Assembly (NCBI GenBank): GCA_025774555.1
Contig: JALGVT010000019.1
Span: 1-64,000 of the forward strand
Direction: 5' to 3'
DNA length: 64,000 nucleotides
Origin: a candidate division LCP-89 bacterium
GTDB taxonomy: Bacteria > Electryoneota > B3-LCP
A program made the translations under genes and the position numbers. The notes under the pieces are model-generated. The model made no database searches. It was not told where the DNA came from and worked only from the letters and a program-made list of their open reading frames with translations. How positions within the stretch are numbered: the stretch's first letter is position 1; every line of letters starts with the position of its first letter. Shown piece by piece: positions 51,856 to 60,473 of this stretch.

Positions 51856-53496
51856 TCAATGAATAACGCCGACTAAATGCAGCGCTTCCCGTGATTCTCC
51901 ACGGAAGTGAAACTGAGCCTCCGACGGCGCCTTTCTACCATCACGATTGACGAGAATATCTACCCTTAAATAGTCATTCGCCTTGTCTATAGCGTCGTCT
52001 GGAATCAGGAAGCGAAATTCAGCATCCTGCCCCGCCAATGAAAGTCCGCTGGTCAATTCCTTTCCGCGATCATCCCTGAATGACACTTCGTACCGCACGT
52101 TTTCATCAGCATTGTCAAAAACCTCTTTTTGAACGTCGACGAATGTGATAATTCCATCCTCAATCCCGACAAATTCGATTGGCGATACTTCACTGTAACA
52201 ATATTCGAGAGTCTTTCTGCGTCGCTCCATAAGCGTATTAACGATGTAATCACCTGCTTCAGGTTCAGGATAATGAGCTGCATTCACAAGTGTTCTGATG
52301 TGCTCCTCAGTCAGCGCCGAAATGATTTTTGCCGCCCAGTAGTTGTCATCCCGACGGGAGATGCGTGCCGGCAAAAACTGGTAGGTTTCACGCCAGGTTG
52401 CAGGATTGAATTGTGCGGCTTCAAAGGCGCCGACTGATTTCCATCTGGTATATTCCACGTTCTCCCAGGTTTGAACCTTTAAACCTAAAGTGAGGTAATT
52501 GCCCCATACCTGACCGAAGTTGAAATAGTGCGAGAATCCGTCCCACATCCAGTCATGTTCAGCGCCGTGTCCTCCGAAGGCTTCGCCGAAATCAAGTAGG
52601 TAATGCACCACATATCCATCCTCAGAGTCCTCATGATAAACATCCAGCGAATTATCTATCCGAATATCTGCGTGATTGGTAAAAGCGCCGAAAATACGCA
52701 TCGCCCGCATGGTTCTGCGGTTTTCGTGATCTATGCTATCGTTGGGATCATCTTCCCGCACCCCGTTCTCAGCCGTGGGACCGAGAATCTTTCCCTTGAG
52801 AAAAAGACTGAAGGTACAGCGATGCGTGTTATTGACGGGAGCGGCTGCTCTGTGAAATACCGCCTCTATGCTCTCTTCGGTTAATTTGCTCTCTGGATTT
52901 ATCTGCAAATCTTCCGCTCTGAAAAATACCAGATAATCTTCAGGGACGTTATAACCGAACCCCCAGAAGAGACGGTTCACTACCAGCGCTGTGCTGCTTC
53001 CAATCCCGGGGAATTCCGGTGGATCAAATTTGACCAGATAGGTGTGTCCTCTGGAATCCACTGCGAAAAATCCCGGATTTGATCCGCTCGTTTTCGCTCT
53101 GACAACCGTATAAGGCGGTTCTGGATAACCAACCGTTTCCACCCCGTGAAGAAGCTCATCAGGAGAAACGTCTCGATAGCCAAGCCGTGGTGTGTACCAG
53201 GTTGATGCAGGCACGTCATCCATGGAATTCACGTCTTGTGAGCGCGGAGTTGCCTTAAAATCAAAAGTATCGACTAACGGACGGCGCATAAGATTGTTAT
53301 AATAGTAATAGACTTTTTCGAAATCCATCTTCTCAGGGGGCGGTACGGAATGTTTGTCATCCTCAACAGTTACAGGAGGAGCGTCTAAGAAGCGGACGGC
53401 ATGACTTCCGCACCCGATGATGAACATACCCAGAATAAATGGTATAAACCCGGTTGATATAATTCTCATCTGCTTCATCAAATCGTTCAACGCCAT
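51856..53496 (-). CDS. Lipoprotein with protein-kinase-like motifs
   Basis: ATG 53496 is chosen over the TTG at 53502; the gene overlaps the barrel gene by about 10 bp. The 546-residue protein has a lipobox ending at Cys29 (GMFIIGC). It carries a kinase-like series: a glycine-containing loop with VDSRGHTYLVKFD (Lys156), a helical segment (STALVVNRLFWGFGYNVPE), HADIRIDN (HxDxxxxN, His275, Asp277, Asn282) and LLDFGEAFGG (DFG, Asp302). This order matches the HRD and DFG motifs of the kinase fold. A C-terminal beta domain follows. The activity is unproven; I infer a surface or periplasmic kinase-fold protein. Confidence 0.65.
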   Translation of the reverse strand: MALNDLMKQMRIISTGFIPFILGMFIIGCGSHAVRFLDAPPVTVEDDKHSVPPPEKMDFEKVYYYYNNLMRRPLVDTFDFKATPRSQDVNSMDDVPASTWYTPRLGYRDVSPDELLHGVETVGYPEPPYTVVRAKTSGSNPGFFAVDSRGHTYLVKFDPPEFPGIGSSTALVVNRLFWGFGYNVPEDYLVFFRAEDLQINPESKLTEESIEAVFHRAAAPVNNTHRCTFSLFLKGKILGPTAENGVREDDPNDSIDHENRRTMRAMRIFGAFTNHADIRIDNSLDVYHEDSEDGYVVHYLLDFGEAFGGHGAEHDWMWDGFSHYFNFGQVWGNYLTLGLKVQTWENVEYTRWKSVGAFEAAQFNPATWRETYQFLPARISRRDDNYWAAKIISALTEEHIRTLVNAAHYPEPEAGDYIVNTLMERRRKTLEYCYSEVSPIEFVGIEDGIITFVDVQKEVFDNADENVRYEVSFRDDRGKELTSGLSLAGQDAEFRFLIPDDAIDKANDYLRVDILVNRDGRKAPSEAQFHFRGESREALHLVGVIH

Positions 53497-54845
53497 TCGC
53501 AACGCTCAGGTTTATCGAAACTTGATCCGAATAATATTGTAACCCTGATCCCTTCAGACCCATAAACTGCTTGAAAACCAGCGACGTCAGCATGGTGAAT
53601 CTGCAGCGTCATCCCCGTACCGAATGCCCAGGGAGCTTTGTCAATTTCCACCTCATCAAGAGTTTCTGATACGATCAGGAAATCGGTGAACAGGTAACCG
53701 GTGAGTGTGTATGTCAGGGGCCAGCGGTATTCTAAAGAAGGGACGAAGGAGTAGTTGTCCAACCTCAGCAATCTTCTCGAAGAGACGCCCCGGAAATTGA
53801 GGTGCCGAGGATATTCGGTGAAGGGTATAACTGCCTCATCGTTTAGGTTCTCTAACGCATTCAAGGTCAAACTTGGTACGATCAATCTATTATGTCTTAG
53901 AACAGGAATAAACAGCGAGAAGTCAAAGCCCGATCGCAGGAAACTGATATCATTATCAACTCCACCGGAGTAGCCAAAATATCCGCTTGCAGAATATCCA
54001 CCTGATTTTATCTGCTTCAAATTTCGGGAATCGTACCGCGCCGAAATTTCACTGTACGTCATTTTGACATTCTGCCCGACGAATTCGAGAGCAGGTACGT
54101 CGAAAACATGGTCGAGCCTGTTATCACCTTCAGAGGGGCTTATAACTTCACGCTCGCGGTAAAGAGACGTCAATGATAATTCAAAACAAGGACTTATTTG
54201 CTTGCTGACCAGTAGCTGTAGTTTTCGACGATCCTGCTTATAAACGGCGTTTTCATGCTCTGCTGTCTTTAGAAAGCGACTTCTGGGATCGTTACTTGGA
54301 TCGTTTCCAATACCATAGTAAATGCGGTCATCTTCTTCCGCTTTTTCACCAGTTATAGAAATCTTCCAGGGAAAAGCTTTGTATTTATCGTCGAGCCTTA
54401 GTTTTACTCTCTGTCGCCAACGGTCGGAGTTGGCGTATTTCCCCTGAAACGAGGCGCCAAGGATGTCACTGCGATAAAATACCTTCACACCGACTTCAGG
54501 TCGAAACTCACTGTCTAATTCTGCTGAAGGATACCACCCCAGGCGTTTTTCGTAAAAGAATAAAAATCCTTCAATATATTCGATTACTTCCGGTTTAGTC
54601 GCGGCGTAAAGCCCTCTTCCAAGCAGATATGTAGCGCCGCTGATCGTTTCCCTCGGTACGAAAAATAGTGCGTTGAGACCACCGCGGAAATAGTTAGGGG
54701 AATGCGCTAATGACTCAATCCCGCTGATAGACACCGTGCTGTTAACTATGCCTGTTGAATCAGGAGATTCATCGAGCGCTAAGGCGGTGGATAAGTTGAA
54801 TATGTAGATAAGACAGATGGATAAACTGGTTAAAGTCTTTTTCAT
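53487..54845 (-). CDS. Omp85-like outer-membrane barrel protein
   Basis: This 452-residue protein has a signal peptide (to about LALA). The rest is amphipathic beta strands typical of a 16-strand barrel. The end of the barrel contains YPRHLNFRGVSSRRLLRLDNYSFVPSLEYRWPLTYTLTGYLFTDF, which fits the BamA/TamA-type surface-antigen signature with an RG motif. No POTRA domains are present. It starts 7 bp behind the hybrid kinase gene and overlaps the lipoprotein gene. Confidence 0.8.
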   Translation of the reverse strand: MKKTLTSLSICLIYIFNLSTALALDESPDSTGIVNSTVSISGIESLAHSPNYFRGGLNALFFVPRETISGATYLLGRGLYAATKPEVIEYIEGFLFFYEKRLGWYPSAELDSEFRPEVGVKVFYRSDILGASFQGKYANSDRWRQRVKLRLDDKYKAFPWKISITGEKAEEDDRIYYGIGNDPSNDPRSRFLKTAEHENAVYKQDRRKLQLLVSKQISPCFELSLTSLYREREVISPSEGDNRLDHVFDVPALEFVGQNVKMTYSEISARYDSRNLKQIKSGGYSASGYFGYSGGVDNDISFLRSGFDFSLFIPVLRHNRLIVPSLTLNALENLNDEAVIPFTEYPRHLNFRGVSSRRLLRLDNYSFVPSLEYRWPLTYTLTGYLFTDFLIVSETLDEVEIDKAPWAFGTGMTLQIHHADVAGFQAVYGSEGIRVTILFGSSFDKPERCEWR

Positions 54846-54852
54846 TCTCTAT

Positions 54853-57800
54853 CTATTTCAGGTTTGTCGGCAGGATGATAGTAAATTTGGTGCCCTTTCC
54901 TATTTCACTTTCTGCCTTTATCTCTCCTTTGTGATCCTGAATGATCTGGTAGCAGATAGATAGTCCCAATCCAGTTCCAATGCCGACTCCTTTCGTGGTG
55001 AATCCGGGATCGAAAATTCTTTCTAGTTTATCTTGCGGAATGCCTGAGCCCGTATCCATGATCTCAATATGCACTTTCTTTTTCTTCGAGCTGGTGCTGA
55101 TGGTGATTTCACCTTTTCCCAATATAGATTGCCTGGCGTTGATCAGCAGGTTCATAAAAACCTGATTTAACTGTCCAGGATAACAAGAGATAACTGGAAT
55201 ATCCCCATAATTCCTGTGTATGGTTATATTATGCTTCAGCTCGTGGTGAACTAAAGTCAAAGTGTCTTCAAGACCTTCGTGAATATCCGCGTCTTTCAAT
55301 TCCGCTTCGTCTAATCGAGCGAATGATCTGAGTCTTCGTACAATTTCTGTAACGCGGTCGGTCCCCGAAGTTATTACGCGGTTTGCGTCTTCAATAATTT
55401 TCAATAAATTCTGAAGTGTTTCTCCGTTATAATCGCTGTTACTGCATATAATCTTCAAGGATGACTTCAACTTGTTAATCGCCAGTATCAGCGTGTCATG
55501 CATACTGTTCACCGCGCCTATTGGAGTATTTATTTCATGTGCGATACCCGCTACAAGCATGCCGAGAGACGCCATCTTTTCGGATTGAACCAACTGCGTT
55601 TGTGTATTTTTTAAACTGATATTCGCCTGAGCAAAATCCTCGAGAGCCTTTTTTAACTCTGTAATGTCATGTGCGACGCCGATTATCTCTGAAGGATTAT
55701 TATCGGCGTCTATTAAAACGGAAGCATGAGTGACAAACCATCTAACGTCTCCACCCTTATTTCTAATTTTAAATTCATACTCTTCACGCCTGGCTTCCGG
55801 CGCGGTAGTTGAACGAAGCCATTTTCTAAAACCCGAGTGATCAGGATTATCTATAAGATCCAGGTTCTTTCGTCCCAGCCACGCTTTAACTTCATAGCCT
55901 GTTGCCTCTTTGAATTTAGGCGATAAATATGTGAATTCACCATTAAGATTGAGCGAATAAATTATATCGTTGGCATTTTCGACCAGACTGCGGAAACGTT
56001 CTTCACTGATACTCAGCGCCTCAAGAGCCCTGCCGCGTGAAATGTAACCCCCGATCATTTCAGAAGCAGTTCGCAGCAGCCGGATCTCTTCATCGTCCCA
56101 ATCGCGCTCCTTTTCAAGATCATCAAAGCCAATAAAACCATACCATTCGCCGTCCACATAAATAGGTAACACTATGATGGACTTGACTCCTTGATCCTCA
56201 AGAATAAGTTTCACCGATTCTGATTGTTCTCTCGTTATTGCATAGTATGGTTCTCCTCTCTTTAGGTTGTCGATCCAATGCTCGAATCCTGCTTTATAGG
56301 GAAGGTTCTGGAGCAGCGGATTTCCGATTTCACATTTAACTCCCGGTGCGCAAACCTCATAACACTGCCGCATACAGAGTCCGAAAGAGGGATCTTCAAA
56401 GTTCTCAAAAAGATAAACCCGTCCGGCATCGGCTGCTTCGAGGAGGTGTCCTAAAGCATTTTCGATGGAACTATCCATATCATCTATCTCGAGCAGAGCC
56501 TGCGAACATTCTGCAATGCCTACCTCGTAACGTAGCTTTGCGGCGATGATCTCCTGATCGCGTTTTCGCGCGGTGATATCCCTTCCCATTCCCACGATGC
56601 GAGTTATCTCCCCATCATCGTTTTGTACAGGAAATATGGACATATCAACATGATATACTGAGCCATCTTTCGCCTGAATCCTGGTTTCACCTCTGAAATT
56701 GCCGGTTTCAGCGATAGAGCGTTTAATTCCTTTACTAAAACTCTCACCCGTCATGTGACTGATGTGCTTTCCTATTAATTCGTCATCTGAATATCCAGAG
56801 GATCGTTCATGAGCTGGATTCCTCGACAGGATATTTCCATCGGGATCGGTGATGACTATGCCGTCACTGGCAGCCATGAATATACGCTTATAGAGCGCCA
56901 GGTTCTCTTCAGTTTCCTTGCGATCTGAGATGTCCTCAGAAACGCCGCAGATCCTGTATATTTCTCCTTTTGAGTTACGAATAGGGAAAGCTTTTGCTCT
57001 TATCCACTTAATAGAGCCATTCTCTCTGATGAGTCGGTACTCAATAGTTCTCTCACTTATCTCTTCAGTATCGCAACTATCCCGCATTATGCTGGCATCG
57101 TCCGGGTGTATGTGCTTTAACCACTCTTCCTGATCCATTTCCAATATCTCCGGATCTATTCCCAATACTTCCTTAAATTTAGGACTTACATAAAGAACTT
57201 TGTCGGCTTCGGTGGACGCTAACCAGAAAACTTCATTAATATTTTCAGCTATCTGTCGAAATCGTTCCTCGCTTTCACGGAGAGCCTCTTCTGCTTTTCT
57301 CCGTACGTCTATGTCATACAAACCGCCGATAATGACTTTCTCCCCTGAAAATTCAGACGCAATTAAATTTAAGATCATCCAGATGATTTCACCATCAGAC
57401 TTCTTAATGCGGACTTCGTAATCACGGATGAAACCGTGCTTCTTTATCTGTTCGATAACCTTCTCTCGATCTTTTGGATCTGCGTAAAAGTCAACAGTCG
57501 TCCGACCGATTACCTGATTCGTGGGAACACCCATCAGATTAGCGAGTGGTTCGTTCGCAAAGAGAACCTTTCCATCAATGAGTCTGCTTACGATATAAGG
57601 TATCGGAGATACTTCGACAACGGTGCTGAGTAGTTCCGTTGTCCGCTTATAGCTTTTAGAGAGTTCCCTGTTGGCATCGCTCAGCGACTTGGTGCTCTGC
57701 TCTATCCTTTTCTCGAGATCAACAGTCCGGTAACGGAGTGACTCTTCCTCGTCGTGAGAAATCTTCAGGTCGGCTTTTAGCTTGTGTGACTCAATTGCCC

Positions 57801-58149
57801 TGTTAATTTTGCTCTGGATTAACTCGAAATCTAAGGGCTTGATGATGAAATCATCGGCGCCCTGTTTTATCGCCTGAACTGCAAGCTCCACCGTGCCATG
57901 TGCCGTCATCACTATAAATGGGAAGTCTGGTGAAACCTTTTTTATTTCGTTAAGGACTTCAAGACCGCCCATGCCGGGCATGTTTAAATCACACAAGACA
58001 ACATCCGTGTCACTGCTGTGGAACTTACGAACGCCTTCATCACCAGACGAAGCGGCATCAACTATGAATCCATGCTTTTCCGCTTGTTCAAGAAATGCCT
58101 GCCGCTGTGCGGTGTCATCTTCGATGTACAGGATATTTAAGTTGGACAT
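54853..58149 (-). CDS. Multi-PAS hybrid sensor histidine kinase
   Basis: This 1098-residue soluble protein follows TGAGGATT. It begins with a receiver domain (D11/D12, phospho-site D54 in VLCDLNMPGMGG) and a coiled linker. PAS domains follow (VVEVSPIPYIVSRLIDGKV, FRQIAENINEVFWL, FMAASDGIVITDPDGN). A GAF-like domain comes next (FENFEDPSFGLCMRQCYEVC to GEWYGFIGFDDLE), then another PAS, HisKA with His in GIAHEINTPIG, and HATPase with DTGSGIPQ and GTGLGLSI. No membrane helix is present. It leads the transcript with the barrel and the kinase-like lipoprotein. Confidence 0.93.
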   Translation of the reverse strand: MSNLNILYIEDDTAQRQAFLEQAEKHGFIVDAASSGDEGVRKFHSSDTDVVLCDLNMPGMGGLEVLNEIKKVSPDFPFIVMTAHGTVELAVQAIKQGADDFIIKPLDFELIQSKINRAIESHKLKADLKISHDEEESLRYRTVDLEKRIEQSTKSLSDANRELSKSYKRTTELLSTVVEVSPIPYIVSRLIDGKVLFANEPLANLMGVPTNQVIGRTTVDFYADPKDREKVIEQIKKHGFIRDYEVRIKKSDGEIIWMILNLIASEFSGEKVIIGGLYDIDVRRKAEEALRESEERFRQIAENINEVFWLASTEADKVLYVSPKFKEVLGIDPEILEMDQEEWLKHIHPDDASIMRDSCDTEEISERTIEYRLIRENGSIKWIRAKAFPIRNSKGEIYRICGVSEDISDRKETEENLALYKRIFMAASDGIVITDPDGNILSRNPAHERSSGYSDDELIGKHISHMTGESFSKGIKRSIAETGNFRGETRIQAKDGSVYHVDMSIFPVQNDDGEITRIVGMGRDITARKRDQEIIAAKLRYEVGIAECSQALLEIDDMDSSIENALGHLLEAADAGRVYLFENFEDPSFGLCMRQCYEVCAPGVKCEIGNPLLQNLPYKAGFEHWIDNLKRGEPYYAITREQSESVKLILEDQGVKSIIVLPIYVDGEWYGFIGFDDLEKERDWDDEEIRLLRTASEMIGGYISRGRALEALSISEERFRSLVENANDIIYSLNLNGEFTYLSPKFKEATGYEVKAWLGRKNLDLIDNPDHSGFRKWLRSTTAPEARREEYEFKIRNKGGDVRWFVTHASVLIDADNNPSEIIGVAHDITELKKALEDFAQANISLKNTQTQLVQSEKMASLGMLVAGIAHEINTPIGAVNSMHDTLILAINKLKSSLKIICSNSDYNGETLQNLLKIIEDANRVITSGTDRVTEIVRRLRSFARLDEAELKDADIHEGLEDTLTLVHHELKHNITIHRNYGDIPVISCYPGQLNQVFMNLLINARQSILGKGEITISTSSKKKKVHIEIMDTGSGIPQDKLERIFDPGFTTKGVGIGTGLGLSICYQIIQDHKGEIKAESEIGKGTKFTIILPTNLK

Positions 58150-58364: not shown

Positions 58365-60473
58365 TCATTTCATCAGGAGTATCTTTCCATGATTGACCAG
58401 CCCGCCCACTCTTATTTCATATAGATAAATGCCTGATGGAAGGTCAGATGCGTTGAAGCTAACTCCATGTCTGCCGGCTTCACGCCACCCATTTATGAGA
58501 GTTGCAATTCTGCGCCCTGAGATATTATAGATTGACAGGTTCACTATAGATTTCACAGGCAGTGTATAGAAGAAACTCGTTACCGGATTGAAGGGATTTG
58601 GGTATGTATCTACTATGATGCCGCCGTCCGATATTACTATTGCGTCTTCGTCAGAATGATCTACTGCATTTCCCCAGCCCCGCAGACTCCACTGCACGAA
58701 ACAGGTGCGCAAAGCATTACCAGCTCGTTTTTCGATAATGAAATCATCTTCGGTATATATCTGGTCGGGATAGTCACCGATCCTGCATCTGTAAGTATAG
58801 TATCCAGGCGGTGCATATCCGGGAATAACCTGCGTAAGCAGTCTGGAAAGGACGCTGTTCGCCGCTATACTGAAGTTGTCCCTTTTGGTGATAAGATAAG
58901 TTCCGCCCGCTGGCAGATCGACCTCGATCCAGATTTCACCTGCTATATCGTAAGTTCCATTGTTCTCAACCTCCAGAACACAGTCGAAGGAGCCTCCTCC
59001 TGCCGGGATAATTATCGGAGGATTCTGAGGTGTAACTGTTACTTGCAATGGAAAAGCTCCAGCATGAAAGGTATAATGTGCTTCCGGTCCGTAGCGCGGC
59101 GCAGTAGTCCAGTTACCCTCATAGTTTTTGGCGTAGATAAAGTAATCTACATAGCCTCCGGGACAGGGTGGAATATCAGCCTCGAAGGTTGATCCCGCAG
59201 TATTATTCAGTGTTATGGTTGACCATTGTTGATTCACACTGTTTCGCCAGATTACCTGCATCGAGTCTGGATTTAAATTACCGAGAGATACTATCTCTGC
59301 CGAGACAGTGTATGGTTCAGTCGTATTAAGCGTATTCGACAACGGCGCATGCTGAATATGAATCAAGCTGGGGTGCGGAACATTGGAAGTGATGCAGTTT
59401 ATGGCTCCACTCAGCGAGATAATAGAACTGCAGTTGATTCCATGGACTTCATACCCTGGCATGTTTTCTCTGAATATTTCAAGAGCGCCGTCATCGTAGG
59501 ACGGCATATTATACGTTGGAACCAGCACTTTATTCTGAACAATTAAAGTATTGCAATAAGTATAGGGTGAATACGACCAGTTGGGAGTGGGAATACGGAT
59601 CACTTTAAAAGGGGTGCCGTTCATGTTGGTCATGCTTGAAAACATCTCTGCTGTTGCTTCCATCGCCGCGTTGTACGGACTACCCGACGGGAATTCGTTG
59701 ACCAGGACGGTATGGTCATTCAGTAGCTTGGCGGACATATTCAGATGATCGATACCGAAAAACATCGGGGTTAATGGCAGTGTGTCTATGTCGCAATAAT
59801 GATGGAAAATACCATTAACGCCCTGGGCTGTCAATCCCCAGTTTTCGGCCAGTATCAATTCTGAGCAGTATGCGTTTCCCTGCCCGTCGATCAGCCAGTT
59901 GCCGCCTGTGTGCGTTAAGTCGATGCCGTAATATTCGATTCCCCAGAGTTGCGAGAGCCATTCCGGTATAACGTCATCCAACGGACGAGGGCGGTTATAA
60001 TCCCATTCATACATCGCAAGATCCCATGAATCGAGCCTCCAGAGCCACCACGGCGCGTAATCCCTGATCCAGACGGAATTGGTTGCCTGGACGAGGAATT
60101 CAACTGAATCGATCGGTGATACGCCCTGCGTCAATAGATAGCTTTGGCAGGATGAAGCCTGGCTCATGCTGCTTACCACAATATAGGCCCGGGTGACGTC
60201 CACCACATAGTCGATTATCTGCGATAGCAGATAATTATGATCACCCCAGCGAAAAAGGATGGCTTCAACTTCTTCCCATTCGGCAATGGTCCTTACCGGT
60301 TCATCAGGCGGAGGTGTGGGATCATCTGTATGAGGTAGCGGCATTCCAATTTCGGAGGGCGCCAAGCCTCGAGGCAGGGAACTACAATCTTGTGAGACCA
60401 ATTCGTTCGCTGCCAGCGACGAACAGCTCGCGGTGATCACTATAGAAGTTATCAAGAAAAAAGCACGCATCAT
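58365..60473 (-). CDS. Second secreted peptidylarginine-deiminase-like protein with sorting domain
   Basis: This 702-residue protein has a signal peptide (to about residue 21) and a deiminase domain. D138 in WIRDYAPW, N308 in YCNTLIVQNKVLVP and catalytic C360 in GAINC are in place. The H-x-D motif of the other copy reads H243-L-N245 (DHLNMSAKLLN), so Asp is replaced by Asn. The end is a sorting domain with YPNPFNPVT, IYNISGRRIA, SGIYLYEI and a final KILLMK. It is likely secreted; activity may differ from the first copy. Confidence 0.85.
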   Translation of the reverse strand: MMRAFFLITSIVITASCSSLAANELVSQDCSSLPRGLAPSEIGMPLPHTDDPTPPPDEPVRTIAEWEEVEAILFRWGDHNYLLSQIIDYVVDVTRAYIVVSSMSQASSCQSYLLTQGVSPIDSVEFLVQATNSVWIRDYAPWWLWRLDSWDLAMYEWDYNRPRPLDDVIPEWLSQLWGIEYYGIDLTHTGGNWLIDGQGNAYCSELILAENWGLTAQGVNGIFHHYCDIDTLPLTPMFFGIDHLNMSAKLLNDHTVLVNEFPSGSPYNAAMEATAEMFSSMTNMNGTPFKVIRIPTPNWSYSPYTYCNTLIVQNKVLVPTYNMPSYDDGALEIFRENMPGYEVHGINCSSIISLSGAINCITSNVPHPSLIHIQHAPLSNTLNTTEPYTVSAEIVSLGNLNPDSMQVIWRNSVNQQWSTITLNNTAGSTFEADIPPCPGGYVDYFIYAKNYEGNWTTAPRYGPEAHYTFHAGAFPLQVTVTPQNPPIIIPAGGGSFDCVLEVENNGTYDIAGEIWIEVDLPAGGTYLITKRDNFSIAANSVLSRLLTQVIPGYAPPGYYTYRCRIGDYPDQIYTEDDFIIEKRAGNALRTCFVQWSLRGWGNAVDHSDEDAIVISDGGIIVDTYPNPFNPVTSFFYTLPVKSIVNLSIYNISGRRIATLINGWREAGRHGVSFNASDLPSGIYLYEIRVGGLVNHGKILLMK

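Follow-up and report, generated by a model that had tools for sequence, protein, structure and literature searches.

What would a protein with a kinase-type active site do beyond the inner membrane? Textbooks describe the periplasm as devoid of ATP and have any reaction there that needs energy powered from the inner membrane. The question is raised by a three-gene locus in a stretch of 64,000 nucleotides (hereafter the window) of contig JALGVT010000019.1, from a candidate division LCP-89 bacterium, encoding a hybrid sensor kinase, an Omp85-type barrel and a predicted lipoprotein of kinase fold. We lean towards the reading that the lipoprotein and the barrel are the core pair of a module for envelope phosphorylation, with the gene of the sensor kinase ahead of theirs.

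The window protein contains YLVKFDP, NHADIRIDNSLD and HYLLDFGEAFGG and keeps all catalytic residues; the VKFD lysine, HxDxxxxN loop and DFG motif, which the initial annotation had read in this order, are all present. Moreover, an alignment of 90 homologues, 24-54% identical to the window protein, shows them to be conserved, so that a chance origin of the motifs can be set aside. Counting residues from TTG 53502, the family alignment has Lys158 in 90/90 sequences, Asn284 in 89/90, Asp279 in 85/90 and His277 in 78/90, whilst in the DFG motif Asp304 is kept in 89/90, Phe in 90/90 and Gly in 84/90. Lys158, Asp279 and Asp304 are Lys156, Asp277 and Asp302 when counted from ATG 53496, and of these three, for which invariance had been put forward as a check, only the lysine is strictly invariant. 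In a Rhodothermaceae member (L064:3910-5268, genome G132) EFS replaces DFG, and no TLC gene was detected in G132. A Fibrobacteria contig (L021:1871-12859) carries two divergent barrel/kinase pairs with TLC, TLC-HEAT, cyclic nucleotide monophosphate (cNMP)-binding and receiver genes; the catalytic Asp is missing from one of the two kinases, which would fit an active/inactive pair.

As a single query the kinase-like protein matched nothing in Pfam, NCBIfam or the PDB sequences, and a profile of the family found no PDB chain up to an E value of 10. An AlphaFold2 model from the 90-sequence alignment reached a predicted local distance difference test score (pLDDT) of 95.6 and a predicted template modelling (TM) score of 0.94, and supersedes an earlier model from 13 sequences that was weak at the active-site region (pLDDT 71). 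Foldseek on this model recovers a two-lobed kinase fold, with kinases as the top PDB matches (E ~1e-4, TM score on the target 0.55). Four PDB matches fall below E 0.001, namely CtkA twice (1.6e-4), the Golgi casein kinase of the Fam20 type (4kqb, 4.2e-4) and a monobody fusion, the last presumably reflecting the C-terminal beta-sandwich. Further matches below these are Fam20, PI4K, VPS34, PINK1 and HipT, and those in a viral fold library are kinases and phage-protein domains only. Comparison of the family profile with an alignment of HipA_2 proteins from Acidobacteriota gave an hhalign probability of 94.8 (E 5.5e-8, 151 columns), pairing YLVKFDP with YVLKFRG, FTNHAD with FVMNVD and LLDFGEAF with FIDHGAAM, which leaves the Lys, Asp and DFG-Asp in register. 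The window protein has no match to Pfam HipA_2 (PF20613), and the family stays under the curated cut-off; weak matches occur in 5/90 members, the best with E 6e-4. On the strength of the model, the Foldseek kinases and the HipA_2 profile match, this is a kinase-fold family of HipA-like kind that lies outside any curated family. The kinase fold proposed in the initial annotation is thus supported, and neither a model lacking such a fold nor homologues in which Lys, HxD and DFG are unconserved were encountered. We also tried to place the family with Fam20 by sequence and rejected this, as its profile matches no PDB chain and the likeness is in fold only.

The matches to PI4K and VPS34 beside protein kinases bear on the nature of the target. 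Fam20B and PI4K share this fold and are kinases of lipid- or glycan-type targets, and a lipid, lipopolysaccharide or surface polysaccharide could be phosphorylated in place of a protein. In L045, which belongs to a cluster of six loci, the barrel is immediately preceded by a gene that its motif marks as PAP2 lipid-phosphatase-like. We nevertheless regard a non-protein target as somewhat unlikely; PAP2-like genes are found in few loci, and the carrier and phosphoesterase genes described below are equally compatible with any phosphorylated target.

The association of the lipoprotein with the barrel is widely kept. Relatives of the kinase-like protein occur in 12/99 genomes of a sample of relatives (the window's own genome counted), and among GTDB species genomes they turned up in no fewer than 209 stretches, of which 80 were kept. 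These come from Calditrichota, KSB1, Zixibacteria, Latescibacterota, Omnitrophota, Fibrobacteria, Acidobacteria, Deltaproteobacteria/Myxococcota, Gemmatimonadetes, Bacteroidetes, Marinimicrobia and others; the nearest relative, from Candidatus Electryonea, is 55% identical. Under a strict test an Omp85-type barrel lies directly upstream of the kinase in 85/96 cases, so the pairing seen in the window is conserved across genomes. The remaining 11 are mostly contig ends, frames running over the barrel or tandem kinases. A hybrid sensor like that of the window precedes the barrel in L023, L076 and L068 (at 3, 19 and 93 bases, respectively) and, with one intervening gene, in L045. A simple rule assigns a lipobox to 37 of the 96 family open reading frames (ORFs) and a hydrophobic N-terminus lacking this motif to another 53; in the window protein IIGC is a plausible lipobox. 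In two Calditrichia (L018:10410-12587 and L019:9560-11749) the kinase is followed by a gene for a protein of ~730 amino acids (aa) and PlpD-like size with a patatin-like start (GLALSGGGAKG). In L013:2-1255 a frame opens with a histidine-kinase dimerisation part and runs into the barrel, which looks like the fusion of two genes by a deletion or by misassembly; the kinase that follows is truncated.

Downstream of the kinase, calcineurin-like phosphoesterase and TLC ATP/ADP-carrier genes recur. The window's own genome provides an example on contig 31 (L095), where a paralogue 31% identical to the window protein belongs to an operon that is the full version of the module (Table 1). The TLC carriers adjoining the kinase in relatives match PF03219 above cut-off, and comparison with solved structures links the L095 carrier to ADP,ATP carriers, including a chloroplastic one, with E 6.5e-13. 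Besides this operon, no further TLC gene was found in the window's genome. The initial annotation had worried that ATP is absent outside the inner membrane; the carrier genes adjoining the kinase family speak to this concern.

The link between kinase and carrier extends beyond individual loci. In the window's phylum TLC genes occur in 8/39 genomes, all within the 10 kinase genomes (8/10 vs 0/29, Fisher p 7e-7). They occur in 23/26 kinase genomes vs 21/123 others in Acidobacteriota (149 genomes, p 5e-12) and in 8/12 vs 23/101 in Myxococcota (113 genomes, p 0.003), all of these counts treating genomes that are not independent. Amongst kinase-bearing genomes found by name, 46/48 have TLC. Moreover, in 25 of the 48 kinase genomes of the three phyla the kinase has a TLC gene no more than ~4 kb away, where random placement predicts ~0.3. 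By phylum, this is 8/10 in the window's own (0.05 expected), 11/26 in Acidobacteriota (0.19) and 6/12 in Myxococcota (0.06). This positional proximity is stronger evidence for the link than co-occurrence. Other TLC genes (L113:8747-10462 and L119:9199-10899) adjoin proteins that read as FHA-like, not exported kinases, and the carriers may serve another purpose there.

A second exported kinase-like family, termed A3, was found in Acidobacteriota that have TLC and lack the window kinase family. In L110, L113 and L115 the TLC gene is near that of an exported fusion protein, phosphoesterase at the N-terminus and kinase-like domain at the C-terminus; L117 encodes these parts as two exported proteins. 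The A3 profile matches FAM20A and FAM20C chains with E 1e-10 to 1e-9. The family is present in 20/149 Acidobacteriota (E <1e-20), of which 20/20 have TLC vs 24/129 of the others. Common descent of A3 and the window family was considered and is unsupported (hhalign E 0.046, probability 1 percent), although the motifs do align. Two exported families with phosphatases and nucleotide carriers would look like the expected outcome of nucleotide supply to extracytoplasmic kinases.

These same genes could also belong to external nucleotide scavenging, with the barrel as pore, the phosphoesterase as nucleotidase, the TLC protein as importer and the kinase-fold protein as nucleotide binder. Characterised TLC/NTT proteins do import nucleotides in parasites and plastids (PMC5381601). 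However, the core pair is barrel and kinase, often without carrier or phosphatase, the Fam20-like exported family fused to a phosphatase has the same TLC link, and the cluster is accompanied by two-component sensors and cNMP-binding proteins, all of which make scavenging quite improbable in our view.

Several observations weigh against an envelope phosphorylation module. At the locus in the window no carrier or phosphatase gene adjoins the kinase, and the locus is a reduced version of the module. TLC was undetected in 9/48 kinase genomes (2 in the window's phylum, 3 in Acidobacteriota and 4 in Myxococcota), some of which are incomplete. An unrelated Na+/H+ antiporter family also shows an association in Acidobacteriota (odds ratio 6, p 9e-6), and co-occurrence partly reflects lineage and genome size. 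Since this control correlates too, co-occurrence by itself is weak evidence and the case rests on adjacency; the TLC association in Acidobacteriota, taking either kinase family, is nonetheless far above the control (odds ratio 91, p 3e-19). Because NAD or other nucleotides may be what TLC-family proteins transport (PMC5381601), ATP is only a putative cargo here.

Further points against it come from the active site. The five exceptions at Asp279 are N, G or E, four of them in the window's own clade; this Asp is lost in L016, L020, L021 and L022, and the Asn in L004, also of that clade. With the His of the HxD motif not invariant and the Asp lost in close relatives, some members may be pseudokinases. 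Some kinase-fold proteins carry out other chemistry, and the family as a whole could be a pseudokinase, an enzyme of another nucleotide-dependent modification (AMPylation, glutamylation) or a mere binder acting as a periplasmic subunit of the barrel. Four sequences of the clade that includes the window protein have N or G at the catalytic Asp position, which speaks for this, as does the unconserved His. We consider it unlikely given the conservation of Lys158, Asp279, Asn284 and Asp304 reported above, the retention of all of these in the window protein and the phosphoesterase gene alongside many members.

If the envelope phosphorylation reading is right, the kinase-fold protein would leave the cytoplasm through Sec and be held by a lipid anchor, probably in the outer membrane, close to its barrel. 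A nucleotide would be its phosphate donor, and the acceptor, most likely a protein, would belong to the envelope or the cell surface. In the complete module, inner-membrane TLC carriers would supply nucleotide to the periplasm and take the product back, the calcineurin-like lipoprotein would take the phosphate off, and the two-component sensor would govern expression or activity. The single carrier/phosphatase set of this genome, in the contig-31 operon, would serve both kinase copies. We hold a broader proposal more tentatively, as one that may prove correct but is slightly more likely not to: that free-living bacteria of many phyla carry out ATP-dependent periplasmic or outer-membrane phosphorylation fuelled by dedicated ATP/ADP carriers, and that two exported kinase families without detectable common origin beyond their fold use this supply, which would explain the puzzling TLC/NTT carriers of free-living bacteria.

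An ORF check of the window placed all three genes on the minus strand, with coordinates unchanged from the initial annotation (Table 1). A gap of 7 bases separates the barrel gene from the preceding hybrid kinase gene, the product of which has four PAS domains by Pfam, in agreement with the earlier description of a multi-PAS hybrid kinase a few bases away; receiver, GAF and HATPase domains were also identified, with HisKA slightly under its cut-off. The reported overlap of the kinase-like and barrel genes depends on the start codon. It stands with TTG 53502 (548 aa) or ATG 53496 (546 aa), both within the 3′ end of the barrel gene, and disappears with ATG 53478, also possible, which would put the gene 8 bases past the barrel gene. 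The window barrel scores 26 bits against the Omp85 cut-off of 24, whilst the contig-31 barrel matches Omp85 with E 1.4e-18; Pfam detected no POTRA domain in the N-terminal part of the window barrel. A promoter/terminator scan showed no excess over shuffled sequence. Beside the locus, at 58365-60473 (minus strand), is a gene for an exported 702 aa protein that by eye resembles a secreted arginine/agmatine-deiminase-type enzyme with a C-terminal sorting-like domain.

Table 1. Coordinates of the locus in the window, the contig-31 operon (L095) and the A3 family members
Feature	Position	Strand	Basis or context
Kinase-fold, predicted lipid-anchored exported protein	51856..53502	-	ORF, 90-sequence alignment, AlphaFold2, Foldseek, HipA-like profile
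Signal peptide with plausible lipobox IIG-C (Cys31)	53410..53478	-	sequence
VKFD motif, Lys158 (ATP-lysine position)	53023..53034	-	Lys 90/90; aligned to invariant HipA_2 Lys
HADIRIDN catalytic-loop-like motif, Asp279 and Asn284	52651..52674	-	family alignment
DFG motif, Asp304	52585..52593	-	family alignment
C-terminal Ig/fibronectin-III (FnIII)-like beta-sandwich	51859..52182	-	model secondary structure; Foldseek matches to FnIII/monobody folds
Omp85-superfamily outer-membrane barrel, partner gene	53487..54845	-	Pfam PF01103 E 8.2e-6; upstream homologue in relatives
Hybrid sensor: receiver, four PAS, GAF, HisKA, HATPase	54853..58149	-	Pfam; homologues in L023, L045, L068, L076
Barrel	L095 8248-9558		paralogous operon
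Kinase	L095 9566-11284		paralogous operon
Phosphoesterase lipoprotein	L095 11300-12592		paralogous operon
TLC carrier	L095 12609-13949		paralogous operon
TLC-HEAT	L095 13988-16822		paralogous operon
cNMP-binding-like	L095 16860-17294		paralogous operon
Receiver protein (response regulator)	L095 17404-17901		paralogous operon
Fam20-like exported kinase-like family (A3)	L110:4925-6784		
Fam20-like exported kinase-like family (A3)	L113:14192-16048		
Fam20-like exported kinase-like family (A3)	L115:10466-12646		
Fam20-like exported kinase-like family (A3)	L117:8258-10152		
Fam20-like exported kinase-like family (A3)	L118:7815-8651		

Lastly, we compared the module with known systems. The window family shares with HipA-like kinases (HipA_2, HipA and CtkA, the last being its best solved structural match) the kinase fold and, by profile, the aligned Lys, catalytic Asp and DFG-type Asp. 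HipA kinases are cytoplasmic and CtkA is a secreted effector. Unlike these, the window family is ~540 aa long with its own N-terminal part and a C-terminal beta-sandwich, is predicted to be exported, is paired with a barrel and falls under the Pfam cut-offs. Fam20 secretory-pathway kinases (Fam20C, Golgi casein kinase) have the same fold and are active in an extracytoplasmic compartment to which ATP must be imported; the window family has no significant sequence match to them, and only the bacterial A3 family matches by sequence. TLC/NTT carriers, NTT-HEAT fusions and adjoining cNMP-binding genes were described in free-living bacteria with their function left open, in a text that names neither kinases nor periplasm (Major et al. 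2017, PMC5381601); the carriers found here are of the same family, with the same order of NTT-HEAT then cyclic nucleotide-binding domain. For the Omp85/TpsB superfamily, subfamilies including one with PF00149 were described, and the word kinase is absent from that paper (Heinz and Lithgow 2014, PMC4104836). The likeness lies in the Omp85-type barrel and its association with PF00149 domains, whereas here kinase and phosphoesterase are separate genes. The kinase fold is of a known kind, and the module as a whole is without a described counterpart, as no description of it, nor any paper joining TLC, Omp85/PF00149 and an exported kinase, was found in the open-access literature searched.

Taken together, a kinase-fold family that adjoins a barrel gene and, in many members, ATP/ADP-carrier and phosphatase genes suggests extracytoplasmic phosphorylation in some bacteria, with an ATP supply of their own. 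The module would make a direct test possible, through periplasmic ATP and envelope phosphosites. If true, this would be a bacterial counterpart of Golgi protein phosphorylation and would account for the presence in free-living bacteria of nucleotide carriers familiar chiefly from parasites and plastids.

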